Shown in pieces: positions 51,021 to 58,852 of a stretch of 64,000 nt of DNA (positions within the stretch are counted from its first letter, which is position 1; each line of letters begins with the position of its first letter). The position numbers were made by a program, and so were the translations under genes. The notes beneath the pieces were generated by a model. That model worked only from the letters and a program-made list of their open reading frames with translations, had not been told where the DNA came from and did no database searches. Origin of the DNA: Hygrophila difformis (taxonomy: Eukaryota > Streptophyta > Magnoliopsida > Lamiales > Acanthaceae). The DNA lies in the NCBI GenBank assembly GCA_030278955.1, contig JAOANR010000010.1, forward strand, positions 14,243,086 through 14,307,085. The letters are read 5' to 3'.

Positions 51021-51288
51021 AAGTATGTAGGGGTAAATGTTAAAAAGGGCCATAACAAGGAGGCTATTCCACTTTTAGGCCATAACAAGTTGGAATTGTA
51101 AAAACAGGTCATAACAAACACAGTTTGGCAAAATTTAGGCCATAGGACCTATTTGAAATTAATAAATGACCCAACAACTTTTCCTTCTTTCATTTCAACC
51201 CCAAGAAAGTTTGACTTTATTTACTTTAATCCTTTCTCAATATACTTAATTTTTCATTATATAAATGACACCCAACGCGCATGAAAAT

Positions 51289-51301
51289 TGGTATCAGAGC
51301 C
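51289..51301 (+). promoter_or_regulatory. tRNA-Met primer-binding site
   Basis: TGGTATCAGAGCC is complementary to the 3' end of plant initiator tRNA-Met, the minus-strand primer of caulimovirids and many retroelements. By convention it marks position 1 of caulimovirid genomes. Here it lies within a few bases of the inner edge of the left inverted repeat. Confidence 0.92.
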
Positions 51302-51377
51302 TAGGTTTTATTGAAGAACATATTAATTATATTATTTATAATATTTTATTTCTTAATGGAGAAGATTTAATTATTTA

Positions 51378-51536
51378 ATGGATTCAAATAATTTGAAACC
51401 CACGAGTTATTTCCAAATTTTGGAAATAAAAAATAGAAAATTCCAAAGGAATTTCTTGAACTTGTCCATGGGACAAGATATTATCAAAATCAGTCTCTTT
51501 CCTAAAAATGAGAGGAACGGACTGGAAAGAAATTGA
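51378..51536 (+). CDS. Small ORF after the primer site (52 aa)
   Basis: ATG at 51378 to TGA at 51534-51536, start MDSNNLKPTSYFQILEIK. It overlaps the next ORF by 29 bases in another frame. Caulimovirids often have a short ORF in this position, but I see no diagnostic motif. It may be a leader ORF rather than a functional protein. Confidence 0.4.
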   Translation: MDSNNLKPTSYFQILEIKNRKFQRNFLNLSMGQDIIKISLFPKNERNGLERN

Positions 51537-51891
51537 TCCGGATAGCTCTAAGTTATCAAAAGACTTAAGAGAAATCCAAAAGACGATTCAAGATTTTGGT
51601 AATCGGGTATTAATTATACCTGGGAAAATAGATAACTTGAATCAGACAACAGATGAGATCTTGAAAGTATTTCAAGACCTAAAGAAAGAAATTTTGAATC
51701 TGAAATTTGACATTTCGGATATCAAAAAAAGGCAGAAGGATATTCCTGGATCTTCCAAGAATAATCAAGCCAATATTAGAGATGCATTCGGACCAGTACA
51801 AGCTTTACATCAAAAGGGTAAAGCAACTATGGTTCCAAAGCAGAAATCACAAGAAGAGCTTATGATCGATCTCCTGAAAACAGTCGAATGA
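51508..51891 (+). CDS. Coiled-coil ORF, pararetroviral (possible virion-associated protein)
   Basis: 127 residues from MRGTDWKEIDPD. Residues about 18-75 have heptad-like spacing of I/L/V (LREIQKTIQDFGNRV, IDNLNQTTDEILKVFQDLKK), predicting a coiled coil, followed by a basic Lys-rich tail. It ends in an ATGA overlap with the coat ORF (51888-51891). Virion-associated proteins of caulimovirids are small, coiled-coil and basic at the C-terminus, so that role is possible, but sequence evidence is weak. The frame is intact. Confidence 0.5.
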   Translation: MRGTDWKEIDPDSSKLSKDLREIQKTIQDFGNRVLIIPGKIDNLNQTTDEILKVFQDLKKEILNLKFDISDIKKRQKDIPGSSKNNQANIRDAFGPVQALHQKGKATMVPKQKSQEELMIDLLKTVE

Positions 51892-56582: not shown

Positions 56583-57861
56583 AGCTGATTCCATCATTAC
56601 GAGATTCAGGCACCTCAGAGAAAACCTAGAGGAGCTATCGAAGCATTTTGGACAGCTCGAGATCAATGCACGAGCAGTTGGCCAAATACAACAGAGCGAT
56701 GTGGACATGGTCCGCAACAATATACGAACCTCCCATATAGCAATGACAGCACTATGGGAAACAGTATTAGAGCCAATCAGGAAAGCGTCAGCTTCCCTGG
56801 TAAACAAAGAGAAAAGTGCCCAAAAAGCTAAAGTGGTCACATATGAAGAAGCAGATTCAAGCACTGCTTCAAAGGAACCATTGTCGGATACCGACAAAAA
56901 TGTTGAGCAAGAAGAAAGTCACATTTCCGAAAGCTCAAGTCAACCCACTGCCTCTGGGGTGAAAGAGGAAGAAATTAACCTTAGGCCAATGACAGGCACC
57001 TCTAAGGTTAATTCAGACGAGAAGGTCCTATCTACTGCCTGGCTGGACTACCGAGGAAAATGGGAACAACTGGTTTCCAAAAAGGGAATTAACCCTAGCA
57101 AAACAGTAATCGAGACATCCGGGAGATACAACAGGGTATGGATGCTCGAAGAATCGAAACCAGAAGAGGTACGAAAGTGGTATGAATTTGGAGCATTAGC
57201 ATCTGTTCATACTACATCACCGGGGTTTCCGGAAATCGAAAAACTTCCGGGATGGATAAGTAGTGCGGTGCACGAATCATGGCAGAACAACCCGCACCTG
57301 CAAAGAGGAGATATTCTGGAGCTTAAGTTCATTTCAGCGGCACCAGAGATAGTCGGAAAAGGTTCTTATCCGGTCTTTCAATTTATTAAATTACAGAGAC
57401 CTGATATGATTGCTTTCAACAGAGTTAAGTCTATGGATGAGAAGGCACCATTGGTATCTTCAATCAGCAAAGATGAAATCTCCACCCGACGAGCATGGGG
57501 ATTCTGGGTCCGGCTCACCGAGATGGAAAAGGTTAAATATCCGTTTAAAATATTCTCAAACAATTTAAATGGATCGTTCCTGGTTAATTCTTTAACAGGG
57601 AAAAGCACAGAGTTCGCGGAAACCTCATTCGAAAAGAAGAGGTTACTCATCTGGGAAAACAAGTTGCCAGCAACCGAGTCCACCAGAAAAAAGGCATGCA
57701 ACATGATGCATGTTGGCCAATGGGATAACCACATATGCCCATATTGTGCAGAACAGGAGAAACCCCTATTCGGTACAAAGATCCGAGTAACCCAGAAAAA
57801 ATCCGGACCCGAACAGGACAAAGGGAAGAAACGTCCAAAAAACTTTCACAAGCCAAAGTAA
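56569..57861 (+). CDS. Pararetroviral ORF in transactivator position (430 aa)
   Basis: An intact frame from MEAFEADSIITRF overlapping the polymerase stop by 14 bases. Residues 1-85 look helical; 90-150 are low-complexity acidic/Ser. The central part has WLDYRGKWEQLV and the PGFPEIEKLPGWI block. Near the C-terminus HVGQWDNHICPYC gives a His/Cys cluster, possibly zinc-binding, and the tail is basic. In caulimovirids with this gene order the last ORF is the translational transactivator/inclusion-body protein. I assign it by position and size; I see no decisive motif. Confidence 0.6.
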   Translation: MEAFEADSIITRFRHLRENLEELSKHFGQLEINARAVGQIQQSDVDMVRNNIRTSHIAMTALWETVLEPIRKASASLVNKEKSAQKAKVVTYEEADSSTASKEPLSDTDKNVEQEESHISESSSQPTASGVKEEEINLRPMTGTSKVNSDEKVLSTAWLDYRGKWEQLVSKKGINPSKTVIETSGRYNRVWMLEESKPEEVRKWYEFGALASVHTTSPGFPEIEKLPGWISSAVHESWQNNPHLQRGDILELKFISAAPEIVGKGSYPVFQFIKLQRPDMIAFNRVKSMDEKAPLVSSISKDEISTRRAWGFWVRLTEMEKVKYPFKIFSNNLNGSFLVNSLTGKSTEFAETSFEKKRLLIWENKLPATESTRKKACNMMHVGQWDNHICPYCAEQEKPLFGTKIRVTQKKSGPEQDKGKKRPKNFHKPK

Positions 57862-58053
57862 GATTAGCTGGATGTAAAAGAAAGAGAGGTGTCGGCAACA
57901 CTCATAATTAAAAGCCGACAAAGAAGGGCAGAGTAGCTGGCAGAAAGTGGCCGACAAGAGAAGGTGGAGAGTTGACAAAAGCCACCTAACGCAATAATTC
58001 AAAAAAGGACAATAATGTAGCCGGTGGAAATTAAGGCCAAGTGACGAACGCAG

Positions 58054-58120
58054 TGACGTCACAAGGATTTAGAGGAAGATTGGAATCCGGGGCTGAAGTC
58101 CGCGGGCGCCTATAAATAAA
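58054..58120 (+). promoter_or_regulatory. Pararetrovirus-type promoter (TGACGTCA plus TATA)
   Basis: TGACGTCA at 58054-58061 is an as-1/bZIP-type palindrome. TATAAATA starts at 58111. They lie after the last ORF, as the full-length-RNA promoter of caulimovirids does. Transcription would start near 58140-58150 and run towards the end of the unit. A GGGGTATTCCCC hairpin lies just downstream at about 58224-58235. Confidence 0.7.
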
Positions 58121-58852
58121 GGAGTTTGAAGCAGATGGAAGGCATCAAAAATCCTCCCAACTCTTCAAAATATTTGTAATATTTCTCTTTCTGCATATTT
58201 CCTTTCGAGTCTGTAAAAGTATGGGGTATTCCCCCAAGAGTCTTGTATCCTCCATGAGGAACTAAGTGTTTGTCTTCTCCGTTAGGGGAAATTATGTTTG
58301 AATAATATCTTTAATATTTCTTCAGTAAAATCCAGGCTTCCAAATATCCCAAAAATCCCGATAATATAGTTAAAGCCATTTATTCATATCTTGATACGTC
58401 CTAAGGTAGGAAACGAAATAGGACTGTGCTGTTTGTTGCTGAAGGAGCCAAGAATCGGTGAACCATCGGCCGTGGTTGCGTGGTTGGAGGAAGTCCGTAA
58501 AATCCCGGAGCTTAGGAAACCCGGCAACAAGGCGGTCAAAGCCAAGGTATGAAATTTAGTGCTTAATTTAATTATCGGAAGCATGATGGGCTTTAATTGG
58601 ACTATATTTGATGAAAAATATAAGATAGGGGTCAAAGTGTAATAGGGTAAAAGTTGAAGTCAACTGATGGGGTCAAAAGTATAATTAAGCAAAAGCTGTT
58701 AGGGTCAAGTATAATTTTAAAAGGTCTTGATGGCCTAAAATTGAACTAAAGTGGTTTGTTATGGCCTAAAATTCATAATCCAAGTTGTCATGGCCTAAAA
58801 CCTGAAAGGCCTCCTTGTGATGGCCTATTTTGATAATTACCTCAAGTATGTA

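Follow-up and report, generated by a model that had tools for sequence, protein, structure and literature searches.

A caulimovirid genome opened in its predicted leader hairpin and bounded by Mutator-type ends in Hygrophila difformis: a probable virus-transposon unit

How could a plant pararetrovirus without an integrase come to lie in a chromosome between inverted repeats and a target-site duplication? The question is raised by a 64,000-nucleotide (nt) stretch of Hygrophila difformis DNA (assembly GCA_030278955.1, contig JAOANR010000010.1, positions 14,243,086 to 14,307,085 of the forward strand), hereafter the window, in which an element that we call V (51030-58843) holds caulimovirid genes between imperfect inverted arms and a 9-bp duplication. 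Passages of PMC10377300 describe caulimovirid integration as speculative and name as options break repair at TA repeats, chimaeras with long terminal repeat (LTR) retrotransposons and a hijacked transposon-derived integrase, and a passage of PMC10175614 says that it is unknown how these viruses integrate and propagate. The analysis presented here suggests that V is a caulimovirid opened in its predicted leader hairpin and equipped with Mutator-type ends, and that it probably arrived as a single virus-transposon unit, by way of a Mutator-like transposase acting in trans.

V is flanked by a perfect direct duplication, AAGTATGTA (51021-51029 and 58844-58852, no strand assigned), whose sole further copy in the window lies on the opposite strand at 42315-42323; two 9-mers from the window are identical by chance with a probability of 7.8e-5. 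Just inside lie a left terminal inverted repeat on the plus strand (51030-51288), with 30-nt modules reaching the primer binding site, and a right one on the minus strand (58606-58843), also composed of 30-nt modules. The arms are 70% complementary over 130 ungapped nt (51032-51161 and 58712-58841), 75.3% alike across 158 columns by BLAST and 58.7% identical over the 312 columns of a global multiple alignment. A gapped alignment, extending inward to ~260 bp, scores 512 (maximum 257 in 500 random window pairs), and inward of the first 133 bp the score of 180 is exceeded by one of 1000 random pairs. With at most one mismatch, the module GGCCATAACAA has seven matches in the window, three in the left arm, three inverted in the right arm and one at 47532, where shuffles lead one to expect 1.18. 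The 30-nt period exceeds the 95% limit of 300 shuffles on both sides (left, 0.398 vs 0.379; right, 0.409 vs 0.374). Long terminal direct repeats were not found, the longest direct repeat between 50500 and 59500 being 25 nt, and the joined flanks of V match no second copy across the junction within the window that could represent an empty site.

A second element of this kind, S (29380-30607, no strand assigned), is bounded by the 10-bp duplication ATTTTGAAAT (29370-29379 and 30608-30617, likewise unstranded), which may be read as 9 bp in either of two registers; the chance of an identical 10-mer pair in the window is 6.7e-5. Inverted-repeat pairs of at least 60 nt number 19 in the window, and V and S are the two with an identical 9-mer just outside both ends. 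A chance origin of the two duplications was rejected on the ground that the other 17 pairs have none, with the qualification that many of the 19, including many of these 17, are overlapping copies of one dispersed repeat. A 9-bp duplication around long inverted repeats is typical of Mutator-type elements, which have duplications of 9 to 11 bp and arms of 100 to 500 bp according to passages of PMC3310237, and duplications of 7 to 12 bp according to passages of PMC10741241. Both elements show the long inverted repeats and the duplication length of Mutator-like elements (MULEs), with arms of 130 nt ungapped and ~260 gapped and a 9-bp duplication in V, and arms of 460 nt ungapped and ~590 gapped and 9 to 10 bp in S.

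Between the arms of V, the viral genes lie on the plus strand in the order coiled coil, coat position, zinc knuckle, movement protein, protease-reverse transcriptase (RT), RNase H and transactivator position, presumably an arrangement resembling that of cavemo- or solendoviruses. The first open reading frame (ORF; 51460-51891) is coiled-coil-like, with Pfam matches only under the cut-offs. It is followed by an ORF without family in the coat-protein position (51822-52670) and by one with a zinc knuckle (52783-53325; PF00098, E 1e-4) that may be the C-terminal part of the coat protein. The genes typical of Caulimoviridae come next: a 30K movement protein (53276-54526; PF01107, E 5.1e-30), an A3 protease and RT on one ORF (54523-56247; PF02160, E 4.2e-11, and PF00078, E 7.6e-34) and an RNase H (56223-56582; PF17917, E 2.1e-13). 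The RT and RNase H ORFs are in different frames and are not joined, and this copy of the virus is therefore broken. The ORF in the transactivator position (56563-57861) matched no viral Pfam family, and 2 of the 12 minor ORFs carry one weak match each, under its cut-off. An earlier note on this DNA had pointed out the perfect 9-bp duplication and the long inverted arms with common modules, both of which are confirmed. It had also claimed a near-complete caulimovirid gene set, which is borne out by Pfam for movement protein, A3 protease, RT, RNase H and zinc knuckle, while coat protein and transactivator are labels assigned by position.

After the last viral ORF come, on the plus strand and in the order expected for a leader, a 35S-type promoter identified by eye (58054-58120, with TGACGTCA at 58054-58061 and the TATA box CTATAAATAAA at 58110-58120), upstream ORFs, among them one of 14 aa (58221-58265), and a leader segment, here called A (58344-58605). 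On the other side of the genome, the primer binding site TGGTATCAGAGC (51289-51300, plus strand) is exact and has no other copy in the window on either strand; we take it to be the usual Met-tRNA primer site. V thereby shows the primer site, the 35S-type promoter and the leader layout of Caulimoviridae, with the upstream ORF placed before a predicted stem. The basal part of this stem would be formed by an ascending strand at 58263-58343 and a descending strand at 51287-51377 (both plus; pairs spanning 51288-51377), the latter including the primer site. The 72 predicted pairs give -69.8 kcal/mol, compared with a mean of -22.9 in 500 shuffles (standard deviation 3.9, lowest -38.6) and a best value of -55.2 among 978 window stretches (1000 drawn, 22 without negative energy dropped); a shorter stretch of the stem gives -42.5 vs -13.3 in 500 shuffles. 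At 58272, 7 nt beyond the final base of the stop codon that closes the 14-codon upstream ORF, the first run of 18 pairs begins. Passages of PMC5902531 report that pararetrovirus leaders form large stem-loops, and that the upstream ORF ends before the leader stem in most pararetroviruses examined, the layout described for shunting. Each end of V is thus one half of the RNA leader predicted for the pararetrovirus, and the virus is opened inside the modelled leader hairpin. In a circular viral genome the two ends would meet, and the arms would then make up the upper leader stem between promoter and primer site.

It might be supposed that the inverted repeats are nothing but the long hairpin in the leader of this virus, and that the duplications arose through accidents of repair. 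The large stem-loops known from pararetrovirus leaders (PMC5902531, in the passages cited) and the basal stem predicted in V agree with such an origin, but perfect duplications of 9 to 10 bp stand exactly at the tips of both V and S, each with the small chance per pair given above for 9-mers and 10-mers, and the 17 other inverted pairs lack them. We regard this explanation as highly improbable.

S has arms that are identical at 538 of 589 aligned bases and no ORF of more than 72 aa, and it carries segment A in both arms, the left being 72% identical to V 58297-58601 and the right, which holds only the part 58413-58601, 77% identical to that part. The match of the S left arm with the V right arm continues through segment A up to its inner end. 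A captured exon was considered as the source of segment A and rejected: it encodes a plausible peptide in V, but Pfam finds nothing, and the differences show no bias in codon position (12/16/19 and 16/21/18). The centre of S (29986-30040, plus strand) contains a decayed primer site with the sequence downstream of it. Compared with the V primer site and its 45 downstream nt it scores 155, whereas the best of 4304 other windows reaches 114 and the best of 3501 windows in an AT-rich control 117. A query with 51289-51350 finds its two best further matches in the window in the centre of S (E 4e-7) and, inverted, in the V right arm (E 1.4e-6), followed by a match at E 0.003; the stretch 51301-51821 matches S at E 1.8e-4 with a BLAST cut-off of E 5, and is missed with a cut-off of E 1e-3. 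The outermost 22 nt of the V left end agree with each S end at 14 of 22 positions (P 0.00015). V and S differ in duplication and have segment A and related ends in common, and S is without virus genes. Within the window, the joined flanks of S find a single weak match of 42 nt that spans the junction (E 0.001); it was not counted as an empty site. S is also adjoined by a dispersed repeat whose matches end at its left edge. This family has at least 10 partial copies in the window, in both orientations (17721-17896, 25024-25287, 26660-26923, 29152-29367, 61496-61695 and others); one of them ends a few bases before S, with a Stowaway-like end by eye.

The related ends of S, with its leader segment and its decayed primer site, make it likely that the leader was joined to the transposon ends before V or S was inserted. 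S itself looks like a non-autonomous form that arose from a V-like unit by internal deletion. In the simplest history, a fused ancestor would have had leader sequence in both arms; V would have retained the virus but no longer segment A on its left, and from S the virus would have been lost. The reverse history, in which an S-like element was later invaded by a virus, must account for the relic of the primer site in S. This bears directly on the main rival to a fusion, a nested insertion in which linear viral DNA, broken in the leader, was joined by its ends into an S-like Mutator element already resident there, with older ends and an older duplication that had no relation to the virus. S indeed has arms without viral genes, the arms of V are 59 to 75% alike depending on the method, as might be expected of an old resident, and break repair is among the two widely held hypotheses of caulimovirid integration set out in part of PMC10377300. 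S nevertheless holds a decayed primer site and leader sequence in its centre, and its match with the V right arm extends across segment A as far as the inner end, so that viral sequence was already present in an S-like element; a nested insertion would, moreover, need a break exactly where the arms of the hairpin meet. We consider it unlikely.

Alternatively, a Mutator-like element could have copied viral DNA during gap repair, as Pack-MULEs do with gene fragments, after which the leader sequence would have spread to both arms by conversion. A conversion step can spread sequence to both arms of a MULE, and segment A is indeed in both arms of S. Passages of PMC3310237 indicate that MULEs take up foreign sequence and that their repeats can be duplicated or lengthened. 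Against a capture, the cargo of V is no fragment but a nearly full-length viral genome in a single order with one opening point, and no host gene fragment was recognised between the arms. This makes a capture improbable, and less credible to us than a nested insertion. The proposal of the earlier note that the viral genome is cargo of a Mutator-like unit holds as regards the Mutator-type ends and the duplication, but 'cargo' is too loose a word for a genome whose two ends carry the predicted leader. As to insertion into or capture by an element, which it had left side by side, the leader segment and decayed primer site of S point to an earlier joining of leader and ends rather than a recent nested hit. 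Arms without viral genes, which it had named as part of what would refute it, do exist in S.

Several observations weigh against V having arrived as one virus-transposon unit, and should be set beside those above. The tip of the V right end agrees with the S ends at 10 of 22 (P 0.048) and 8 of 22 positions (P 0.22), a near-absent likeness, and the resemblance between the outer arms of the two elements is weak, with scores of 176-187 that 9 to 29 out of 1000 windows drawn at random also attain. The arms of S show a marginal 30-nt period, with 0.405 (95% limit 0.393) on the left; on the right the peak is at 32 nt (0.387 vs 0.386), and the value at 30 nt is 0.384. Most or all of segment A is missing from the V left arm, and the viral origin of this segment is deduced from where it lies, between the promoter and the primer site. 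The predicted leader departs from the usual layout in two respects: six further weak stem pairs overlap the upstream ORF's stop codon, and the descending strand of the stem contains the primer site, which in most genera is found downstream of the stem (PMC5902531, in part). V is the only virus-bearing copy seen in the window, in which nine viral pieces had no match outside V at E 1e-3, S being without genes. Finally, no integrase or transposase was found in V by Pfam at E 0.1 in any of its 19 ORFs of at least 80 aa. V hence lacks the MULE transposase of Mutator-like elements, as non-autonomous elements do, and would depend on a transposase supplied in trans.

If V did arrive as a single unit, a route can be sketched in which each partner supplies one step. 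Integrated linear V would read outward from its promoter, and full expression would need circularisation or a second copy. Reverse transcription of a circular copy would restore paired ends, and a host Mutator transposase might then insert the circular copy, with its abutted ends, into the chromosome. This last step is proposed by analogy: in the bacterial IS256 family, which is related to MULE transposases, circles in which the two ends abut are integrated, according to passages of PMC7780238, and a title in the reference list of the same paper likens MULE transposition to that of hAT elements. Taken further, a whole lineage of pararetroviruses may have merged its leader hairpin with Mutator ends, being copied by reverse transcription and pasted as a circle by the host transposase, a proposition that we put forward tentatively and regard as possible rather than probable.

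Relatives of the viral genes are plentiful in related plants. The RT piece of V has 704 protein matches, and among the 120 listed every named one is from Sesamum, with three nameless (P0004, P0067, P0092); the Sesamum relatives are known as proteins only. The ORF in the transactivator position has 156 matches; of the 120 listed, those with a name all come from Lamiales (Sesamum, Salvia, Perilla, Phlomoides); in some of these relatives the gene models join it to RNase H domains. Named viral references were absent from the 120 matches listed for each of the two queries. In viral contigs, no relative was found with protein queries, with a primer-site pattern or with a pattern of segment A, for which two contigs share only 21 to 23 nt; searches of prokaryote genomes likewise found none.

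The remainder of the window has features of its own. A 679-aa frame on the minus strand (45727-47763) has FAR1 and MULE domains and belongs to a host gene similar to FAR1-RELATED SEQUENCE 6 (FRS6-like). Its top identity is 94% to one protein, followed by 81% to Sesamum and Paulownia, and long proteins of Erythroxylum (69% identity) and Fagus (55%) have higher bit scores. Together with the relatives of the viral ORFs, these identities suggest a host in Lamiales that is near Sesamum but outside this genus. On the strength of these protein matches, the frame was rejected as a nearby autonomous MULE and is likely a domesticated transposase that forms no active element. On the plus strand, remains of a long interspersed nuclear element with DUF4283, endonuclease and zf-RVT domains occupy 33310-37772, and a 553-aa open frame with a PAM2 motif (14346-16007) is probably an exon of a host gene. 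A short tandem repeat array rich in ATACCG lies at 62600-62938.

The coincidence of leader arms and transposon ends offers a possible answer to how caulimovirids that lack an integrase enter and multiply in plant genomes, and a concrete integration mechanism that can be tested by copy counts, target duplications and empty sites. Should a pararetrovirus-Mutator lineage exist, it would explain why relatives are so numerous in the genomes of sesame and other Lamiales, and foldback elements like S would be its solo ends. It would also represent a second, independent kind of fusion between a virus and a DNA transposon, beside Teratorn of fish, with a reverse-transcribing partner. We found no report of a pararetrovirus-Mutator fusion in the open-licence literature, which our broader searches covered in part.

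V combines properties that have been described separately. Like other endogenous caulimovirids, it has a movement protein, an A3 protease, RT, RNase H, a primer site of the Met-tRNA type, a promoter and a structured leader, and no integrase domain or long terminal direct repeats were found in it; unlike them, it ends in inverted repeats and has duplicated 9 bp of its target. With Mutator-like elements and Pack-MULEs, V and S share 9 to 10-bp duplications and inverted repeats that measure hundreds of bp, S being a non-autonomous form, whereas V differs in its near full-length viral cargo, in the leader sequence of its ends and in that no transposase domain was found. The chimaera of banana streak virus and a Ty3-Gypsy element, as presented in part of PMC10377300, is likewise a caulimovirid riding on the integration machinery of another element, in that case an LTR retrotransposon, whereas V has the ends of a DNA transposon with a target duplication of its own. 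The nearest precedent for a virus fused with a DNA transposon is Teratorn, the piggyBac-herpesvirus fusion of medaka (PMC5601938), in which a virus genome lies between DNA-transposon ends as in V. A fusion of the Teratorn type has a transposase of its own and is one shown to transpose. V, in which no transposase domain was found and which may have moved as a unit, differs from it as a reverse-transcribing plant virus with Mutator-type ends, and these ends coincide with a predicted RNA structure of the virus itself.

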